This document shows positions 5,196 through 47,166 of a stretch of 48,239 nucleotides of DNA, in pieces (position 1 is the first letter of the stretch; the number at the start of each line of letters is the position of its first letter). The position numbers and the translations under genes were made by a program. Origin of the DNA: Caryophanales bacterium (GTDB lineage: Bacteria; Bacillota_I; Bacilli_A; RF39; UBA660); the NCBI GenBank assembly GCA_016282155.1, contig JAEEJY010000012.1:1-48239 (forward strand), written 5' to 3'. The notes under the pieces are model-generated. The model ran no database searches and was not told the origin of the DNA. It saw nothing but the letters and a program-made list of their open reading frames with translations.

Positions 5196-7518
5196 TAGTA
5201 TCACCTCCTAAGAATGTTTTCTTTAATTCAGGATCAAGTTCTACAATATCATCATTTGTCATATAACAAATATCTTTAAATGGACAAAATTCACAAGATA
5301 TATTATCATTTTTCAATTTCTTAGGATTAATTGTAAAATCTAAATTATTAATATCTTTAATAGCGTTTTCAATGTTGCTTGAGATTACTTCCATTACTTT
5401 ATTAAAAGTATCTTCATCTAGTAAACGTTTACTATCTTTAAGTTCCCCATCTTTTCTAATAGTTACTCCTCCAAGATAAGAAACACTATCATCAATATTA
5501 TTAACAACATCAATATCTTTAAAAGTATAACCTGTTAGAGAACTATTTTCCTTTAATAAATCACTATAAGTCTTACCATTTTTACTATTAATTAAATCAG
5601 GCATAATTTGTTCTAAATACATACCTGCAAATTTAGGATTCTTTATTAATTTAGAGTTATAGATTAAATACATATAAAAAGCAAGTTGCATATTTATTCC
5701 ATATACAGCATTCTCTAAACCATGTAATACTCCTGTCTTATAATCAATTACAATAACATAAGTATTATCTCCATCTTCAAGAGTTAATATTTTATCTATT
5801 TGACCTTTTATCTTAATATTTAAACTATTATCATTATCAATAATAATTGTTTTTTCAAAATAAGATTGTTTAAATTTAGTATGACTTAGTTGTTCTTCAA
5901 TTATATTAATTAAGTCTTTTAAGATACGTTTATATTTTTCAATATAAAACTTATCTTTATTAGTAAGAATCTCAATATTCTTATCAATTTCCTCATCAAT
6001 AATTAAATCTAAATTACCTTTATCTTTAAAATATCTACATAAAACAGCATGATATAAAAGACCTATCTTTTGACTTATAGTTTCTTCAAAAGTATCTAGT
6101 TTATATATATGTTTTAATAAATAGTTAAATTTACATTTGTAAAAATCATTACTTGAAGTAGCCGCTAAATTGATATTACTATTTTGTTTTTTAACTACTT
6201 CTAAATCAATACCCTTAAATTTATTAGAGTAATCTTTATAGTTAGTTTTATAATTATTTAATATTTCTAAATCACTAGCTTTTTCATTATATTTTATAAA
6301 ATTATCTAATCTTTTACCTAATAAAATTTCATTTATCTTTTTATTATCATATTTGTAATTACCTTTAATAATATTAATATTATCTAAAGCATCATAAATA
6401 GAATTTTTTACATACATATCAGCATTATGTTTTAACTTATAAGATAAATATATATTTTTAACATTATTAATATAATATTCAAAATAATCTTTAATATTAC
6501 TATTTAATTCTTTGTAAGTACTTATTTCTAATTCTTTAGCTTCATCCTCTTTTAAGTAGCTATCATCTACTAAAGTCTTAGGTACTTCTCCTTCATTAGT
6601 ACCTAGAATAAAGATATATTCATCATCTAAAGGAATATAACTCTTATAATCTTTTTCATTAATAGCGTCTTCTAAAGTATTTAAATTAATACTTGTATGT
6701 TTAAGATCATAAATAACTTCTTTCTTAATATCTTTAAATTCTTCATAATCAACATATTTATTAAAAATACTTACTATTTTATTAGCGACAGTTTCTGGAA
6801 GTTCTCCTAATCTTTCATTAACATCAACTATCTTTGTATCTAAAGAAATACTATTAATAAACTTTTTAACGCTTAATAATTCATATAAAGTATTTGTTTT
6901 AAAGTTATTAGGAATATTATAAAAATTAAATACTCTAATCATAACTTTACGATAATCTTCACTTAACGTATTAACAAATATCTTATTAATAGAAACACCT
7001 TCATTAATTAAATCACATATTTTAGAAGCTACTAAAATAACTTCTTCTTCTAAAGTATCACACTCTAAAACATCTATCTTATCTTTAAAGATAGTTTCTT
7101 TATCTTGGTATGTAAGATTATTTACTTTTTCTAACTCTTTAATTATTTTAGTAATTCTTTTATCAAAGAAATTATTTAATACTAAAATATCTTTATCTTT
7201 AAGATATTCTTTAAACTTAGGATTATAAATAATATATCCTTTTCTAATTAAATCATTCTTAATATCTCTTAATTTATTTAATTTAGGGCTAGTATATTCT
7301 TTATCTTCAACATCATATAAATTATCTAAGATAATTTTAGATATTCCAATATCATAAGTTTTATCTAAATAAACAATAGTATCATCTCTATAAGCATAAA
7401 GATACTTATCCCTTAATTCATACTCATCAATATATTTAATACTATATTTTAAACTATTCTCTTTTAATACCCTTCTTTTTAAATAAGATGGACCTATTAT
7501 GATTAGATTATCTTTCAT
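5176..7518 (-). CDS. addB: AddB/RexB-like nuclease subunit, shortened
   Basis: Partner of AddA in recombinational repair, carrying a RecB-type nuclease. The nuclease core is seen as QIDKIL and VIDYKTG (about residue 590), then QLAFYMYLIY. An iron-sulfur cluster motif typical of AddB is complete: Cys462 in FYKCKFNYL and CEFCPFKDIC at 742-751. The protein has 780 residues, against about 1150 for Bacillus AddB, and its N-terminus (IIIGPSYLKRRVL) has no Walker A, so like lactic-acid-bacterial RexB it probably binds no ATP. The start follows TTAGGTGATTTT; a TATAAT at 7535-7540 gives only a very short leader. It precedes and overlaps addA. Confidence 0.85.
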   Translation of the reverse strand: MKDNLIIIGPSYLKRRVLKENSLKYSIKYIDEYELRDKYLYAYRDDTIVYLDKTYDIGISKIILDNLYDVEDKEYTSPKLNKLRDIKNDLIRKGYIIYNPKFKEYLKDKDILVLNNFFDKRITKIIKELEKVNNLTYQDKETIFKDKIDVLECDTLEEEVILVASKICDLINEGVSINKIFVNTLSEDYRKVMIRVFNFYNIPNNFKTNTLYELLSVKKFINSISLDTKIVDVNERLGELPETVANKIVSIFNKYVDYEEFKDIKKEVIYDLKHTSINLNTLEDAINEKDYKSYIPLDDEYIFILGTNEGEVPKTLVDDSYLKEDEAKELEISTYKELNSNIKDYFEYYINNVKNIYLSYKLKHNADMYVKNSIYDALDNINIIKGNYKYDNKKINEILLGKRLDNFIKYNEKASDLEILNNYKTNYKDYSNKFKGIDLEVVKKQNSNINLAATSSNDFYKCKFNYLLKHIYKLDTFEETISQKIGLLYHAVLCRYFKDKGNLDLIIDEEIDKNIEILTNKDKFYIEKYKRILKDLINIIEEQLSHTKFKQSYFEKTIIIDNDNSLNIKIKGQIDKILTLEDGDNTYVIVIDYKTGVLHGLENAVYGINMQLAFYMYLIYNSKLIKNPKFAGMYLEQIMPDLINSKNGKTYSDLLKENSSLTGYTFKDIDVVNNIDDSVSYLGGVTIRKDGELKDSKRLLDEDTFNKVMEVISSNIENAIKDINNLDFTINPKKLKNDNISCEFCPFKDICYMTNDDIVELDPELKKTFLGGDTNEDETE

Positions 7519-38659: not shown

Positions 38660-40060
38660 TTATTTGTTTTCTTTTGGAATTCTTGCTACTAAAATCTCTT
38701 GAATAATTAATGAAGCAACAACACCATAGATAAGTGGTAAACTATCTACAATATATTCTTTTGTGAAATCACCAAAGATTGTAAATATAATACCTGCTAC
38801 TAATAATACAAATGGTACAACACCAAATAAGAAAGTCATAACTTTTCCACCTGGAACTTTGTATGGTCTTTCAGCAGCACCATCTGTTCTTCTTAATTTT
38901 AAGAATGCTAAGAACATTGGAGTGTATCCTAATAATAAAGTTATCCAACTTAAGTGGAAGAATAAATCAAATGCATCTGTAAAACTTGGAACAAGTTCAG
39001 CTACAACTACTCCTCCAATTGAGATAAGTGAAGCAACAATACCATTCATTATTGAAGCATTTGAAGCAACACCTTCAGCATTAGCTTTCTTGAATACTTT
39101 TGGCATAGATCCATCGTCAGCTGCATATTTAGCAACTTCGTCTACACCGAAACTCCATGAAGAAATATTAGCAATAAATGTATAAATTAACATTATTCCA
39201 AATACCCAAACAACTACGTTTAAAGCTGTTCCTGTTAATCCAACAGCACCAAAAATACCATTGAATACTTGAACCATATTTTCTGGATCAATATCACTAC
39301 CACCTAAAACAATATTAAATGCTGTAGCTGGAAGTACATAGAATATAGCCATGATTAATCCACCAATGATTAAGGCTTTTGGAATATCTTTTTTAGGGTT
39401 TTCCATATCCCCTACAAATGAACCAACAACTTCAAATCCTAAGAAGTTGAAGATAATAATTGAAATAAATGGTAAACCTGAATCTAGGTTACTAATACTT
39501 AAATTAGGAATTAAATCTTTAAAAGATTCAATTGGATTTTGACTTCCATTCTTAGCTAAGAATACAAATCCTAAAATACCAATAGTTCCTAAAACTAATA
39601 CTTTAAAGATAGTACCTAAATTAACGATAGTTTTTGATTCACCAACTCTCTTAGTTCCTAAGAAAGTAGTTAACCAAATATAAGCTAATTGAATTAGTAA
39701 TACTACCCACCAAGCTAATTCAACATTCATTAAGCTTGCAAGTACTGTTGTAATTGCAGTAGCTAATGAAGCTATCCAAAGTGGGAAGTTAATCCAATAA
39801 TTCCAAGCTACACGTCCAGCCCATTTTTTACCAAACGCTCTTTTTACCCAGTCATAAAGACCAGCTTCACTTGGATATGCAGTTGATAATTCAGCTGCGA
39901 TCATTCCGTAAGGTACACAGAATGCAACAATTAATAATAACCACCAGAAATATTGAGTATTTCCGATAGCAGCTGTTGGCATAACCGATTCAACAACTAA
40001 AGTAATACATGTAGTTGCTAAAATCGCGTCAACTAATTTGAACTTCTTTTTACTTGACAT
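38660..40060 (-). CDS. aguD: Agmatine/putrescine antiporter (APC family)
   Basis: A 466-residue amino-acid/polyamine permease with about 12 membrane helices. It swaps external agmatine for internal putrescine, which lets the pathway run without net cost for transport. Signs of the family: [19 protein letters not shown] near the start (helix 1), [44 protein letters not shown]. Its substrate is inferred from position in aguBDAC. The ATG lies inside the last codons of aguB (28-base overlap). Confidence 0.93.
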
Positions 40061-41061
40061 AATTTACTCCTCTTGCTACCAAGATTTTTCTTACAAATCT
40101 TAATAGTCTCATCTTTCTTATCTAAGAAATATACTAGAAGTGCCCTCATAGCTGTTAATCTGTTTTCGGCTTCATCATATACTAATGAAATATGTTCATT
40201 ATCCATTATTTCATCAGTAACTTCTTCACCTCTTGTTGCAGGTAAACAATGTAAGAACTTACAATCATTTCCTGTCTTTTTAATCATATCCATATTAACT
40301 TGGTATTTTGGATAGAAAATCTTCATTCTTTCTTCTTCAGGTAATTCAGATTCATATAATCCATACCAAACGTCAGTATAGATAAAGTCTGCTCCCTTAA
40401 GAGCTTCTTCCTCGTTATCAGTAACTAAGAAAGTACCGCCTGACTTCTTGCAGTTTTCACGACAAATTTCTTGAACGTCTTCCTTCATTTGGAAACCTTT
40501 AGGTCCAAATTGAACAAAGTGTGCTCCAAGCTTTGTTGTAACGATAGCAAGTGATGTACATACTTGGGTTGCATCACCAGCAAAAACGATTTTACAATCT
40601 TCAAAGTTTTTACCTTTTGGTAAATGTTCATAGATTGTAGTAATATCCCCTAATGCTTGAGTTGGATGATTATAATCACTCATACCATTAATGACAGGGA
40701 CAGATGCATATTCAGCAAGTTCAGCAATTGATTCATGTTTTATAACACGAGCCATTAAAATATCTGTTAAACGAGATAATACTCTAGCAGTATCTTTTAA
40801 TGATTCATGAGCTCCGAGTTGTATTTGCCCTGGTGCTAAATATTGCGCATGACCACCTAATTGTGTCATAGCTGTTTCAAACGAAACACGAGTTCTTGTC
40901 GACTTTTGTTCAAAAATCATACCTAAAGTTAATTGATTAAGTACATTTAAGTGATATCCAGCTTTAACATGAGCTTTGATAAGTAAACCTAAATCTACTA
41001 AATCTTGCATTTCCTCTTTGGTAAAATCTTGAACGTAGACATAGTTCTTAACTCTTACCAT
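40033..41061 (-). CDS. aguB: Putrescine carbamoyltransferase
   Basis: Uses phosphate to split N-carbamoylputrescine into putrescine and carbamoyl phosphate. Carbamoyltransferase motifs: [12 protein letters not shown] (carbamoyl-phosphate site), HPTQALGD and [14 protein letters not shown]. The [19 protein letters not shown] and [10 protein letters not shown] stretches are typical of putrescine, not ornithine, carbamoyltransferase, and the C-terminal extra helix ([12 protein letters not shown]) is in keeping with it. 342 residues. A strong AGGAGGACT site precedes the ATG. It follows potD by 65 bases. Confidence 0.95.
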
Positions 41062-41126
41062 ATAGTCCTCCTATTCTATACTTAAAATATATCACAAAAT
41101 TTTCTAAAATACTAGTCCATTAATTT

Positions 41127-42152
41127 TTACTTAATTTTGGCCCATAATTTATCATATTTTATAATATACTTACCCAAGTTCTTAACGAATGTTCCTGACA
41201 AAAATACTTCATCGGAAATATTTGCTGCAGGATTATTTAAGTATGTGTCATCAAGAAGTTTATTTGTTTCTTTATTAACACACTTATAAGGATAAGATTC
41301 AATAATCTTTTTCATTATATCCGGTCTCAAAATATAATCGATAAAGGCATATGCACCTTCTAAGTTCTTTGCTCCTACAGGAAGAACGAAATTATCAATA
41401 CTTATTCCAAAACCTTCTTCAGGATAAACTATTTCCATACTAGGATTATTATCTAAAGCAATCGCTGCTTCCGCATTCCACATAACCCCAATATTAGTTT
41501 CTTTTGATATCATGAATGTCTTAGGACTATCACTATCAAAAGCTTTAATATTTTTCTTTAATCTCTTAAACCACTTCTCAGCTTCGTCTAGTTTAAAGTC
41601 ATCAGTTTCATTCATATCATAATTCATAGCTTGTAAAGCCATTCCTATCATCATACGTTGATCATCTATTAAAACTATATCATTCTTATATTTAGGATTT
41701 AATAAATCGTTGTAAGAACTAATATTTTCTTTAATATTATCTTTGTTATAAACAATAAGAACAGACGCTGCTAGGAATGGTAGTGAGTATTCATTATCTT
41801 TATCATATTCAAGATTTAAGAAATTCTCGCTTAAATTACCAATATTTTTTAATCTAGTTTTATCTAACTTATCAATAATTCCTCTTGTCTTCATTAATTC
41901 AACCATATAATCACTAGGAAAAATTAAATCATAAGTTCCTTTTTTAGCAGAAGATATTTTAGCTAGTAATTCTTCATTGGAAGAATAAGTTCCATAATTA
42001 ACTTTAATACCAGTTTCATCTTCAAAATCACTAATTACTTCATCAGGAATATAAGAAGACCAGTTTAAGATATTAACAATCTTTCTTTCTTTTTTAGTAC
42101 ATCCCACTAATAAAACACATAATAGGAGTAAAATAATTAACTTCTTTTTCAT
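41127..42152 (-). CDS. potD: Spermidine/putrescine ABC transporter, substrate-binding lipoprotein
   Basis: A 341-residue solute-binding protein with signal peptide and lipobox LVGC (Cys18). The mature domain opens with VNILNWSSYIPDEVISDFE and contains FPSDYMVELM, WNAEAAIAL and FVLPVGAKNLEGAYAFID, all familiar in PotD/PotF proteins. It overlaps potC by four bases (ATGA) and ends 65 bases before aguB. Which polyamine is bound is not readable; putrescine is plausible given the neighbours. Confidence 0.95.
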   Translation of the reverse strand: MKKKLIILLLLCVLLVGCTKKERKIVNILNWSSYIPDEVISDFEDETGIKVNYGTYSSNEELLAKISSAKKGTYDLIFPSDYMVELMKTRGIIDKLDKTRLKNIGNLSENFLNLEYDKDNEYSLPFLAASVLIVYNKDNIKENISSYNDLLNPKYKNDIVLIDDQRMMIGMALQAMNYDMNETDDFKLDEAEKWFKRLKKNIKAFDSDSPKTFMISKETNIGVMWNAEAAIALDNNPSMEIVYPEEGFGISIDNFVLPVGAKNLEGAYAFIDYILRPDIMKKIIESYPYKCVNKETNKLLDDTYLNNPAANISDEVFLSGTFVKNLGKYIIKYDKLWAKIK

Positions 42153-42943
42153 GCTTTCACCTTCAACTTTCTAATTCCTCTTATTTGGACAAATGTTGAA
42201 ATGGCTAAAACAATAAATATTGTTAATAATATTAAAGTTGCTAAAGCATTAACATCAGGAGTTACTCCTGTCTTTATCATTGAATATAATTCAAGTGGTA
42301 AAGTATTACTTCCTGGACCGGCAGTAAAGTAACTAATTACAACATCATCTAAAGATAGAGTAAAGGCAAGTAAGGCTCCGCTTGTAATACCAGGCATAAT
42401 TGTTGGTAAAACAACACTTACAAAAGTACGAAGTGGCGATGCTCCTAAATCAGCAGCCGCATCTTCAATATTTGACCCCATACTATCAAGCACCGATCTT
42501 ACACTAATTACAACAAAAGGAATCGAGAATGCAATATGCGCTAAAATAATAGTCACAATACTTAATTCCATTTGGAATAATGTATACATTGAAAGTAATG
42601 CTATACCTAAAACTATTTCAGGAATAACTATCGGTACATATAATAATTCATTAACCGCATTTTTAAACGGAAATTTATATTTTTTTAAAGCATAAGCAGA
42701 TATTGTTCCAATAACCGTTGAAACAACTGTACTTATAACTGATACTATTAAAGTATTCTTTAAAGCTTCTAGTAATGTTTCATTACCAAATAACTCTTTA
42801 TACCATTTAAAAGTAAAATCCTCAAATAAAATATTTAATCTTGAACTATTGAATGAATATACAACAAGGACAATAATTGGAAGATATAGGAATAGGAATA
42901 CTAATGATATATAGAAATTTTTAAAAGTTTTACCTTTATTCAT
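42149..42943 (-). CDS. potC: Polyamine ABC transporter permease PotC
   Basis: A 264-residue inner-membrane permease with six helices and the EAA loop AAADLGASPLRTFVSVVLPTIMPGITSG that contacts PotA. It ends with TGA at 42151-42149, overlapping the potD ATG (ATGA), which confirms TGA as a stop in this genome. Its ATG overlaps the potB stop by one base. Confidence 0.95.
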   Translation of the reverse strand: MNKGKTFKNFYISLVFLFLYLPIIVLVVYSFNSSRLNILFEDFTFKWYKELFGNETLLEALKNTLIVSVISTVVSTVIGTISAYALKKYKFPFKNAVNELLYVPIVIPEIVLGIALLSMYTLFQMELSIVTIILAHIAFSIPFVVISVRSVLDSMGSNIEDAAADLGASPLRTFVSVVLPTIMPGITSGALLAFTLSLDDVVISYFTAGPGSNTLPLELYSMIKTGVTPDVNALATLILLTIFIVLAISTFVQIRGIRKLKVKA

Positions 42944-43800
42944 TAAAATCCCCCCAAATCATCCATATTACCACCAATCTTCTTATATAATTTAACAAGT
43001 CCGAAAGTAATAAGAAGTAAGAAGATTGATATTGCCGCTCCAAAAGGCCAATTTCTTGCTGTTAGGAATTGATTCTTTATCAAGTTACCTAATAGCATTA
43101 CTTTTCCTCCACCTAAAATATCTGAGATGAAGAAGAACCCTATAGCAGGCATAAATACCATTAAACATCCATTAAATAGTCCTGGTACCGTTTGAGGTAA
43201 AATTATCTTTAGGAAAGTTTGAAATCTATTAGCCCCTAAATCTCTTGATGCTTCTAAAACAGATTTTTCTATTTTTCCTACAGAATTCATTAAAGGTAGA
43301 ATCATGAATGGTAATAATGTATATACCATTCCAATAATTATACCTAAGTCATTATACATTAAAGCGAGTGGTCCTTTAGTTAAACCTACTCCTTGTAAAG
43401 CTGAATTAATAATTCCTTCCTTACGTAAAAGAATTATCCATCCATACATTCTAATTAAAGAATTAGTTAAGAATGGCACAATAACTAAAGTAGATAATAC
43501 TTTCTTTACTGTTTCACTCTTTTGATTAACATATATTGTAAAAGGATACGCTATTACAATACATAGAACTGTAGTTATTAAGGCTATTAAGAATGATTTT
43601 AAAAATACTTTAACGTAAACATCTTCAAAAATCATCGCATAATTTTGAAGAGTCAAATCATTAATCATTCCACCATAACTATCACTTCTAAAAAAACTTA
43701 TTAATAAAATATAACCTATAGGAATTAATATTAAGAATATAGCATATATAATTACAGGTAAAGTAATCGCTACTTTAAATACGCTAGTTTTGTTTTTCAT
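42943..43800 (-). CDS. potB: Polyamine ABC transporter permease PotB
   Basis: A 285-residue permease with six helices. The N-terminal helix (VAITLPVIIYAIFLILIP) is followed by the EAA loop LEASRDLGANRFQTFLKIILPQTVPG. It overlaps potA by 17 bases and potC by one, in the standard potABCD order. Confidence 0.95.
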   Translation of the reverse strand: MKNKTSVFKVAITLPVIIYAIFLILIPIGYILLISFFRSDSYGGMINDLTLQNYAMIFEDVYVKVFLKSFLIALITTVLCIVIAYPFTIYVNQKSETVKKVLSTLVIVPFLTNSLIRMYGWIILLRKEGIINSALQGVGLTKGPLALMYNDLGIIIGMVYTLLPFMILPLMNSVGKIEKSVLEASRDLGANRFQTFLKIILPQTVPGLFNGCLMVFMPAIGFFFISDILGGGKVMLLGNLIKNQFLTARNWPFGAAISIFLLLITFGLVKLYKKIGGNMDDLGGF

Positions 43801-44863
43801 CTTTAATTACAATAGCATCTACAATGTTCCATTCAACGAATGCTTTGTCACCTTTCGTTACATTTACTAAGTTGCTTAAAGTTTTAATCTGAATATTTTT
43901 TAATTTACCTGCGTTTGCTAATGTCTTAGTATAAAAACCATCATATATATTATCTTTTATTTCCACTTCAAAACTGTTAACTTTTGAAGATGATTTAACT
44001 ATTTTAAAGTTTTCTGGACGAATAATAACATTTACTTTATCATTTTTTGTAAAGTCATTATTAAATACTTTAATAACATCACCTAATGTTAAATCTACAT
44101 AGGCATATCTATCTTGAATCTTCGTTACTTTTCCTTCAAAAATGTTTGATTCACCGATAAAGTCTGCTACATAAACAGAACTTGGATGTTCATATATTTC
44201 ATCCGGTGGAGCTATTTGTTCAATTACACCATTATGTAATAAAACTATACGATCACTCATTGTTAAAGCTTCATCTTGATCGTGAGTTACATATATAAAT
44301 GTAATACCTAATTTTTTTTGTAAATTTTTAAGCTCTAAGCGCATTTGAATTCTAAGTTTTAAATCCAAAGCAGATAATGGTTCATCTAGTAGTAAAACTT
44401 TTGGTTTATTAACAATTCCACGCGCGATACTAACTCTTTGTTGTTCACCACCAGATAATTCTGAAGGCTTACGATTTTCATAACCTGTTAGCTGAACTAA
44501 TTCTAAAGCTTCTTTTATTCTCTTTTCACGTTCCTCTTTTGGAACTTTTTTCATTTTTAAACCGAATTCTACATTATCATGAACGGTCATAAGTGGGAAT
44601 AAAGAATAATTTTGAAATAATGTATTAACCTCTCTCTTAGTTGGATCTAAATCAGTTACATCCTCTCCATCAATATATACTCTTCCTGTAGTTGGAGTAT
44701 CTAACCCAGATATGGAACGTAAGATAGTTGTTTTCCCACAACCAGAAGATCCTAGAATAGTAACAAATTCTCCTTCATTGATTTGTAAATCTAAATCTTT
44801 AATTACAACTTTGTCACCATAACTCTTACTAAAATTTTTTAACTCAACTATTACTTTTTTCAC
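43784..44863 (-). CDS. potA: Spermidine/putrescine ABC transporter ATPase PotA
   Basis: A 359-residue ATPase with Walker A GSSGCGKT, Q-loop LFQNYSLFPLMTV, signature LSGGEQQR, Walker B VLLLDEPLSALD and switch His (VTHDQDEA), followed by a C-terminal TOBE domain (FEGKVTKIQDRYAYVDL onward). It starts with GTG (44863), preceded by GGTGGTAGT. First gene of the pot-agu block, with promoter TTGAAA-16-TATACT just upstream. Confidence 0.96.
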   Translation of the reverse strand: MKKVIVELKNFSKSYGDKVVIKDLDLQINEGEFVTILGSSGCGKTTILRSISGLDTPTTGRVYIDGEDVTDLDPTKREVNTLFQNYSLFPLMTVHDNVEFGLKMKKVPKEEREKRIKEALELVQLTGYENRKPSELSGGEQQRVSIARGIVNKPKVLLLDEPLSALDLKLRIQMRLELKNLQKKLGITFIYVTHDQDEALTMSDRIVLLHNGVIEQIAPPDEIYEHPSSVYVADFIGESNIFEGKVTKIQDRYAYVDLTLGDVIKVFNNDFTKNDKVNVIIRPENFKIVKSSSKVNSFEVEIKDNIYDGFYTKTLANAGKLKNIQIKTLSNLVNVTKGDKAFVEWNIVDAIVIKDEKQN

Positions 44864-44964: not shown

Positions 44965-44993
44965 TTGCACTCCAACTTTTAAAATGATAAAAT
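44965..44993 (+). promoter_or_regulatory. Promoter of the leader-ORF/metallophosphoesterase unit
   Basis: TTGCAC (44965-44970), 17-base spacer, TAAAAT (44988-44993). Transcription would start near 45000, about 22 bases before the mini-ORF ATG. Confidence 0.65.
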
Positions 44994-45021: not shown

Positions 45022-45063
45022 ATGGAAAAACAACTATTCAGCTTAAATAATATTATTTCTTAA
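45022..45063 (+). CDS. Putative leader peptide, 13 aa
   Basis: ATG GAA AAA ... TCT TAA encodes MEKQLFSLNNIIS. It has an AGAGGTG ribosome binding site at normal distance, and lies between the promoter and an intrinsic terminator whose stem begins within its stop codon. No single amino acid is strongly enriched (two each of Ser, Asn, Ile, Leu), so classical amino-acid attenuation is not obvious; a general translation-dependent attenuator fits better. Too short to judge by composition, so the call rests on the arrangement. Confidence 0.55.
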   Translation: MEKQLFSLNNIIS

Positions 45064-45090
45064 GAGTACAGGTTTTTGTGCTCTTTTTTT
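45062..45090 (+). terminator. Attenuator terminator overlapping the leader-ORF stop
   Basis: AAGAGTAC (45062-45069) pairs with GTGCTCTT (45078-45085; one G-U pair) around AGGTTTTT, followed by Ts to 45090. Its first two bases are the last two of the mini-ORF stop codon, so a ribosome at that stop would cover the 5' arm. Confidence 0.8.
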
Positions 45091-45110
45091 GTACTAAAGG
45101 AGGTTTGGAA

Positions 45111-47135
45111 ATGAAAAAGAATAAGGATATTATGAACAGTGATCTTGAGAAAAGATTAAATGAGTTTTTAGGTATTATTGATACTCCATGCACATTCACT
45201 GATATATGTGAAAAGATGGATATAACACCTATTGAAGCACTTAGTTTAAAACGTATCGCTAATGAAAAAGGATACTTAGTTGTATATGCTAAAAATGAAG
45301 ATGATGAAGAGCTTCTATATAATCAAGGAGAAATCAAGAGTAGTATTGGTGAAGAACCAAGATTCGTTACTGATAAAAACAAGGATTTCAAATTCATGGT
45401 TATATCTAATACTCTTCTTGGTAATACAGCTCAACAATTAACTATTTTACGAGATGTATATAAACAAGCTAGTGAACTAGGAATAAAACATGTATTTGTC
45501 TGTGGAAATCTAGCTGCTAAAGATTATGGTGTTAAGAGTCAATACTATACTTCAAATTTTATCGCTGATAAAGATAGTAGAATTGATTATATTATTAAAA
45601 ACTGGCCTAAAGACGATAACATAACAACTTACTTTATAACAAGTAAACTTGAAGATAAAGGTAAAACTAGTTTAGGTAATAGAATATCTGCTCAAAGAGA
45701 AGACATGGTTTTCTTAGGTAGAGGTGTTGGTAATATTAAGGTAGATGATCTTCTACTTAGAATAATTAGTTCTGACTTAGACCAACTATATACTATCTCA
45801 TATCGTGCAGAGCAGTATGCAAAAAGCTTCCGTAGTGAAGATAAACCGGATATTTTACTTTTAGGTGGAACTAACCACTGTGATAATCTTCAATACCGTG
45901 ATATTAACATCTTTACTATTCCAAGTTTAGCAGGAACTACTAAAGAGATGACAGAGAAGAGAAAAGATAATGTTGTCGGCGCTTATATTGTAGACGTTAA
46001 TACTAATACTAAAAAAATTAATAGTAAATTTACAGCCGAATCTATCTTAATACCATACTACAAAACTGATAAAGAAGATTACATCAAAGCAAATGCAAAA
46101 TCTGCTGATAAAACTATAATAACTGGTGATGAACTAAAAAATGAATATTCATTAAAAGAAGTAACAAGATTCTACAACATTATTAAAAATGGTACTAAGG
46201 TTGAAGATTATCTCGCCGAAAAACATATGAGTTTTGATGAATTAAGAGGATGGATGGAGTTAAGTAAAGGTTATGGTAAACTAATTGAAATAGTAGAAGA
46301 TAACAATAGAGATTTAGTATTTAGAAAAACATTACCAAAGAATATTAAATTGAATCATCCAAGTCTAAATTCTGATGACATTGTAGAAAATCAATTCTTA
46401 CTTGTTTCAGATACCCATCTTGGAAATATTCATCAACAACTACACTTATTAAATAAACTTTATAAAGAAGCCTATGAAAGAGGTATCACAACAGTTTTCC
46501 ACTTAGGTGACATTGTTGATGGTAACTATAAAATACGTACACCATTCCCAGCACAAAACTTTTTACAAGGATTTGATGATCAAGCAGAATACGTTATTGA
46601 TATGTATCCTAAAGTTAACGGAATGAAAACAATAGCAATTACCGGAAACCATGATAAAACACATTATGTAAATGGTGGTGCTACTTTAAATAAATGGGTT
46701 CCTAAATCAAGAAGTGATATTGAAATAATTGGTCAAGACCAAGCATTCTTAAATATCGATAAAGTTAAATATGAATTAAGACATCCTGATGATGGTTCAG
46801 CAGCGAGTCTATCATATAAAGCTCAACAAATGATTGATAAAATGAGCTCAGGTCAAAAACCAAATGTCTTTATGACAGGACATTATCATAAATGGTACAA
46901 TATGTTCTATCGTAATGTATTCGCCTTTGTACTTCCTTGTCTATGTACGCAAACTAACTTCGAATTAACACACGGATTAAAACCTATCTTAGGTGGTGTA
47001 TTCTTAACAGTATATTCAAATAAGAAAACTGGCCAAATTGAATACATAGATGTTGATGAAAGAATCTTTAATGAAAAAGACTTCTGGGAAGAAGCTGGCA
47101 AAGACAAGAGAAAAGTTAAACAATTAACAATATAA
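45111..47135 (+). CDS. Two-copy winged-helix plus metallophosphoesterase protein; first phosphoesterase domain degenerate
   Basis: 674 residues, no signal or membrane segment. It appears to be a duplicated unit. Copy 1: winged-helix-like segment (about 10-75), then a phosphoesterase-fold domain (about 93-310). Copy 2: a similar segment (about 345-408), then a complete calcineurin-like domain (about 427-650). The active copy has SDTH (433-436), LGD (465-467), TGNHD (511-515) and TGHYH (589-593). The matching positions of copy 1 are SNTL (99-102), CGN (131-133), TSKLE (177-181) and GGTNH (252-256), so nearly all metal ligands are lost. Substrate unknown, perhaps nucleic acid or nucleotide. I use the ATG at 45111 (AAAGGAGGTTTGG upstream); an in-frame ATG at 45078 lies in the terminator. 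Confidence 0.85.
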   Translation: MKKNKDIMNSDLEKRLNEFLGIIDTPCTFTDICEKMDITPIEALSLKRIANEKGYLVVYAKNEDDEELLYNQGEIKSSIGEEPRFVTDKNKDFKFMVISNTLLGNTAQQLTILRDVYKQASELGIKHVFVCGNLAAKDYGVKSQYYTSNFIADKDSRIDYIIKNWPKDDNITTYFITSKLEDKGKTSLGNRISAQREDMVFLGRGVGNIKVDDLLLRIISSDLDQLYTISYRAEQYAKSFRSEDKPDILLLGGTNHCDNLQYRDINIFTIPSLAGTTKEMTEKRKDNVVGAYIVDVNTNTKKINSKFTAESILIPYYKTDKEDYIKANAKSADKTIITGDELKNEYSLKEVTRFYNIIKNGTKVEDYLAEKHMSFDELRGWMELSKGYGKLIEIVEDNNRDLVFRKTLPKNIKLNHPSLNSDDIVENQFLLVSDTHLGNIHQQLHLLNKLYKEAYERGITTVFHLGDIVDGNYKIRTPFPAQNFLQGFDDQAEYVIDMYPKVNGMKTIAITGNHDKTHYVNGGATLNKWVPKSRSDIEIIGQDQAFLNIDKVKYELRHPDDGSAASLSYKAQQMIDKMSSGQKPNVFMTGHYHKWYNMFYRNVFAFVLPCLCTQTNFELTHGLKPILGGVFLTVYSNKKTGQIEYIDVDERIFNEKDFWEEAGKDKRKVKQLTI

Positions 47136-47166
47136 AAAATAACAGGTATTAACCTGTTATTTTTTT
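47134..47166. terminator. Bidirectional terminator between the phosphoesterase and GH13 genes
   Basis: AAAAAATAACAGGT and ACCTGTTATTTTTT form a perfect 14-bp stem with loop ATTA. Confidence 0.9.

Follow-up and report, generated by a model that had tools for sequence, protein, structure and literature searches.

Why would a bacterium keep a dead copy of an enzyme joined to an intact one? The question is raised by a 674-aa open-reading frame (ATG at 45111; 45111–47135) in a 48,239-nucleotide contig of a Caryophanales bacterium (JAEEJY010000012.1, assembly GCA_016282155.1), the whole of which we refer to as the window; features described below are on the + strand unless stated otherwise. The protein consists of tandem units of a winged-helix-like segment and a phosphoesterase domain, the first dead and the second ligand-complete. 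The superfamily itself, that of the calcineurin-like metallophosphoesterases, is known; what is new is the pairing of an active with a dead phosphoesterase, together with an unexpected, putatively regulatory leader. None of the families in the libraries that we searched fits such a pair, and a literature search found no paper on one.

The sequence-only reading had proposed that the two halves of the protein are homologous along their whole length, including the segments before each domain, and this was borne out. BLASTP between the halves gave 28% identity over 226 aa (E 1e-28), and a profile-profile alignment extended over 306 columns with the pre-domain segments included (probability 100%, E 9.5e-51), values which rule out a chance likeness. 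An assembly or frame artefact as the source of the fusion is likewise ruled out by 18 named MAG loci sharing the fused form. The first unit comprises a winged-helix-like segment of three helices and a two-stranded wing (residues 2–74; 45114–45332) and a pseudo-enzyme phosphoesterase domain (residues 92–298; 45384–46004), identified by its ligand tally and its fold. A low-confidence linker (residues 299–347; 46005–46151; pLDDT <50 over much of 300–344), which is the position of the gene boundary in two-gene (split) species, leads to the second winged-helix-like segment (residues 348–407; 46152–46331), delimited from the AlphaFold2 model and from its profile alignment to the first. There follow a phosphoesterase domain predicted to be active from its Pfam matches, invariant ligands and DP1 fold match at Z 19 (residues 424–653; 46380–47069), and a conserved C-terminal tail (47070–47132) with the consensus DxWDExGKD..KV.L in the alignment of relatives. 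The sequence immediately 5' contains a ribosome-binding site, read as AAAGGAGG (45096–45103), and the terminator scan placed a bidirectional terminator at the 3' end (47134–47165).

The metal-ligand motifs of the second copy are SDTH (433–436), LGD (465–467), TGNHD (511–515), LRH (556–558) and TGHYH (589–593). For all but LRH the sequence-only reading had named a degraded counterpart in the first copy, and the motifs are where it placed them; the first copy has SNTL (99–102), CGN (131–133), ITSKLED (176–182), ISSD (219–222) and GGTNH (252–256). All seven ligand positions are altered in the first copy and all seven are retained in the second. The domain-profile search of each half that had been proposed as a check agreed, with the Pfam families Metallophos and Metallophos_2 (PF00149, PF12850) above cut-off in the second half and without a match in the first.

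AlphaFold2 models were moderate overall (pLDDT 74–77, shallow alignments), that of the whole protein being built from 54 sequences with a pLDDT of 76.5. It contains two units, in each of which three helices and a two-stranded wing precede a phosphoesterase-like alternation. Among solved structures it comes nearest to archaeal PolD DP1 (Z 19.1), followed by Mre11 and the Pol delta and epsilon B-subunits. The first copy was also modelled separately from first-copy sequences alone, to keep the second copy from lending it a phosphoesterase fold; DP1 was again the best match (Z 15.8, 220 residues aligned), with the human Pol epsilon B-subunit at Z 14.6. In this model the dead copy has the phosphoesterase fold, one of the two points on which the sequence-only reading had beforehand been declared open to refutation. 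The HHH-beta-hairpin topology of the model fits the winged helix that this reading had placed before each domain, but the Pfam HTH/WH profile matches, obtained for some relatives, are weak.

To survey relatives we scanned a contig collection with an alignment-based profile, which yielded 53 named loci where an earlier single-protein query had found none. All 53 are in MAGs of Bacilli/Firmicutes type, many titled ruminant-gut or 'Lapin' (presumably rabbit). Every locus contains both copies, 35 as adjacent gene pairs and 18 fused, always with the first-type copy 5' of the second-type, and none of these gut-Bacilli loci is single-copy. The full pair is patchily distributed within the same order, occurring in 27 of 288 sampled genomes by hand count, some of which possess two copies and many of which have adjacent genes in place of one. 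Some small-genome gut bacteria thus have a predicted DNA nuclease that is always encoded with a catalytically dead twin, as adjacent genes or as a fusion. The same bacterial family also has three divergent chromosomal relatives (L160, L161 and L162) that are single-copy and keep their ligands; a gene near L160 and L162 was read by eye as uvrA, and a uvrA homologue is also near the pair in one further genome (G008, locus L155). One genome encodes a third divergent copy of 260 aa, with its ligands mostly lost, 3' of the fused gene (L236:5069–5848). A search of relatives for the flanking potA-like gene, intended for an empty-site comparison, gave no match at E 1e-60.

In a tree that included viral and other single-copy relatives, and for which no root was inferred, first copies and second copies each grouped as a clade of their own (SH-aLRT 100 and 99, respectively). 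As each copy type is a single clade, one duplication preceded the spread of the pairs, judging from this tree, in agreement with the proposal that one ancestral unit was duplicated. The fused or split state changes about six times on the second-copy tree, at least three of these changes being forced by well-supported branches, which suggests that the two copies form a physical complex.

Across relatives the contrast in ligands between the copies is maintained. No first copy is ligand-intact, so that the earlier reading also withstood the second of its two stated refutations: the motif-I His is present in 0 of 75, and the motif-II Asp and the first His of GHxH in 7 of 76 each. Eight early-branching first copies retain three or four of the seven ligands, consistent with gradual decay. 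In second copies each ligand is retained in 70 or 71 of 71 (the motif-I His, motif-II Asp and motif-III His in 70 each) with the exception of the motif-III Asn. At that position 62 of 71 have Ser, a substitution that could change the activity of most second copies; the window protein has Asn. Median dN/dS was 0.18 for first copies and 0.13 for second copies, indicating purifying selection on both, and the pairwise identities of first and second copies are correlated (r=0.87). Given this selection and correlation, the dead first copy is very likely functional; that it was retained for binding or regulation is what we infer.

What, then, might the intact copy do? Its best fold match is to archaeal DP1, the small subunit of family-D DNA polymerase and a 3'-5' proofreading exonuclease, with which it shares the phosphoesterase motifs; DP1 is also the best named sequence match for 19 of 24 second copies. 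These 19 matched the PolD small-subunit model NF003118 locally and below cut-off (best E 2.3e-12), the matches, where displayed, sitting around the GHYHK region, and among the matches listed the DP1 family models of NCBIfam (PRK04036) gave local matches only, at 22–28 bits against a cut-off of 445. A direct PDB sequence search with the window protein returned unrelated matches only, whilst a profile query returned a weak match to DP1. DP1 differs from the pair in that it is single-copy and has DP2 as its partner, and it contains an OB fold. The window protein has two copies, in its model the HHH-beta-hairpin precedes the phosphoesterase domain, and the DP2 partner (PF03833) was not found in the organism's own genome (92% complete), archaeal controls being positive. 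Mre11/SbcD resembles the pair in its phosphoesterase nuclease fold and, Mre11 being a homodimer, in setting two units next to each other. In the pair one of the two units is dead, and no SbcC-like/Rad50 gene adjoins the window open-reading frame. The SbcD model TIGR00619 was matched by 2 of 24 second copies (best 0.023) and was absent from the NCBIfam matches (up to E 1) for the window protein. Looking at whether the pair might replace SbcD, we found SbcD above cut-off in only 2 of the 288 genomes sampled. Mre11 and DP1 have common metal ligands and a common nuclease mechanism, in which a conserved His (H85/H451) is the proton donor (PMC4996933). Second copies keep the motif-III His (70 of 71). 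Our best guess, from sequence and model, is that the second copy acts like a DP1/Mre11-type nuclease, rather than being a DP1.

For the dead copy, the eukaryotic polymerase B-subunits are, by analogy, the closest functional parallel. These are relatives of DP1 in which catalysis has been lost and a scaffold role assumed (PMC4996933, PMC6355029, PMC2669801), and those with lost ligands are kept as indispensable subunits (PMC4996933, PMC6355029). The B-subunits of Pol alpha, delta and epsilon share with the first copy a phosphoesterase fold with lost ligands, but they serve a polymerase, whereas here the dead copy pairs with an active paralogue of itself and has no known polymerase partner. The catalytic subunit of Pol epsilon likewise combines active and inactivated tandem polymerase modules, the inactive part being thought a fusion of a distinct polymerase (PMC2669801); it resembles the window protein in that a single chain holds two homologous modules, one active and one inactive, but has another enzyme fold, and the pair arose by duplicating one gene.

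Single-copy relatives were also found in viruses. We identified 80 uncultured viral contigs in IMG/VR with one relative each, at 30–45% identity to the second copy; the sole relative in named phages was ORF43 of Halorubrum tailed virus BLv36. The viral proteins share the winged-helix-like and phosphoesterase layout of the second copy, and 58 of 70 have the full canonical ligand set, but they differ from the pair in being single, with ligands mostly intact, and when the viral contigs were scanned with a pattern derived from first copies no dead copy was confirmed. Among the gene families around them are DNA polymerase, terminase, anaerobic ribonucleotide reductase and dUTPase. A viral-type source of the pair is plausible from these sequences. 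A prophage origin of the window copy itself was rejected, its neighbours being, on inspection, a spermidine/putrescine-type transport operon and an amylase-like gene. The top viral Foldseek match across nearly the whole model, a 660-aa Hint-named protein (BFVD A0A8S5P6X8, Siphoviridae sp. ctsUY14), looked tandem, though it may be a single copy bearing an intein. In three contigs (L083 and L086, both rumen viral, at ~6001–6915, and L130) an in-frame TGA occurs where a related phage has Trp, for example GNHDD-TGA-WY against GNHDDWWY, which suggests that TGA is a Trp codon in some of these viruses.

No conserved operon surrounds the pair among the 53 loci, but a HAD-type gene lies directly 5' of it in about 20 of them. 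These HAD/NT5C-like genes encode 157–209 aa on the same strand as the pair and fall into at least two distinct subtypes (L134, L141, L144, L145, L156, L187–L190, L195, L204 and L206–L209; further L215, L217, L224, L226–L229, L231, L232 and L238). When eight upstream genes were tested against the NT5C 5'-deoxynucleotidase family, four were above cut-off, three matched weakly and one did not match, and one upstream HAD-type gene matches a solved putative deoxyribonucleotidase structure. As genomes encode about one NT5C gene each, its adjacency to the pair in several lineages, themselves non-independent, is unlikely to be due to chance. No NT5C/HAD-like gene adjoins the pair at the window locus, where a row of genes at 38660–44863, divergently oriented to the 674-aa gene, encodes, on inspection, an amino-acid permease, a putrescine/ornithine carbamoyltransferase-like protein and a spermidine/putrescine-type ABC transporter. 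Elsewhere, one pair is directly 5' of a gene read by eye as uvrB.

The region upstream of the 674-aa gene contains a short open-reading frame, MEKQLFSLNNIIS*, of 13 codons (45022–45063), which ends at an intrinsic terminator detected by the terminator scan (45062–45091; hairpin 45062–45085 and T-run), a putative attenuator that adjoins the ribosome-binding site of the gene. A candidate promoter, TTGCAC-17-TAAAAT with a weak -35 (44965–44993), was read by eye 5' of this leader and is not in the scanner list. The same layout, a leader open-reading frame ending at an intrinsic terminator, is present in 35 of 52 loci compared with 3 of 149 control genes from the same loci (Fisher p 8e-23, computed on related sequences with kinship uncorrected), which suggests attenuation of the pair genes. 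Ribosome-mediated attenuation is known for translation-stress genes (PMC4191407, PMC10314930), and it is in sequence layout that the leader resembles these attenuators. Pairing of the leader ribosome-binding-site region with the end of the leader open-reading frame, which would hide the former, was significant in 14 of 35 loci; the window leader as a whole folded no better than shuffled sequences, and an Rfam scan of it gave nothing near the gathering score. As the leader peptides are not conserved in sequence among relatives, the leader would more likely sense translation generally than one amino acid.

On balance, we lean towards reading the pair as an obligate complex of active and pseudo-enzyme winged-helix phosphoesterases, probably a DNA nuclease, of which the window protein would be the fused form. 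An old, single duplication of a winged-helix phosphoesterase of the kind now found in tailed viruses would have produced two copies that pair as a heterodimer, either within one chain or between subunits. At its active site the second copy would cut nucleic acid, most likely DNA, via the two-metal mechanism of Mre11 and PolD DP1, with the dead copy and both winged helices positioning the substrate. Translation of the leader would govern read-through of the terminator, such that disturbed translation switches on production of the complex, and in many species the adjoining NT5C/HAD-like phosphatase could dephosphorylate the released nucleotides.

The likeness of the models to DP1 and Mre11 is compatible with other substrates, as LpxH and the RNA-debranching enzyme Dbr1 share the fold. 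The same active and dead pair might act on RNA, as an RNase or RNA-processing phosphodiesterase of the stress response, which stalled ribosomes would induce by way of the leader. The resemblance of the leader to the attenuators of translation-stress genes (PMC4191407, PMC10314930) and the use of the phosphoesterase fold by RNA enzymes such as Dbr1 would fit such a role, but we consider it unlikely, as the nearest sequence and fold neighbours, DP1 and Mre11, are DNA enzymes, the genes beside the viral relatives are mostly those of DNA metabolism or packaging, and the NT5C family is named for deoxynucleotides. More improbable still is that the second copy is a phosphatase or phosphodiesterase of small molecules or proteins, with the first copy as its regulatory subunit and no nucleic acid substrate: the breadth of the superfamily, the Z scores of 13–14 for LpxH-type structures in the fold comparison and the motif-III Ser of most relatives would fit, but winged-helix-like segments on both copies, the DP1 sequence matches and the DNA-gene context of the viral relatives argue against it. 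We give least credence to a defence or nucleotide-depletion module, in which the pair and the NT5C-like phosphatase degrade invading DNA or dNTP pools with phage-disturbed translation as the trigger, for although the patchy distribution (27 of 288 genomes, occasionally with two copies), the NT5C neighbour in several lineages and the abundance of viral relatives are compatible with it, PADLOC gave no meaningful match of the window protein to a known defence system and the neighbours read by eye are housekeeping genes, not defence islands.

A further and more tentative possibility is that bacteria have here a counterpart to the evolution of polymerase B-subunits: a DNA nuclease, obligately heterodimeric or fused into a pseudo-dimer, half of it dead, of virus-type origin and induced by ribosome stalling on its leader. 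Living species display the stages together: the viral single active gene, the two-gene pair of active and dead copies and the fused protein, with partly decayed first copies as intermediates among them. Because these stages coexist, the use of a dead nuclease copy, an old question for eukaryotic polymerase B-subunits, becomes testable in a small system. To this the leader would add a switch responsive to translation stress, and the B-subunit-like reading, if true, would tie translation stress to DNA processing in these bacteria.
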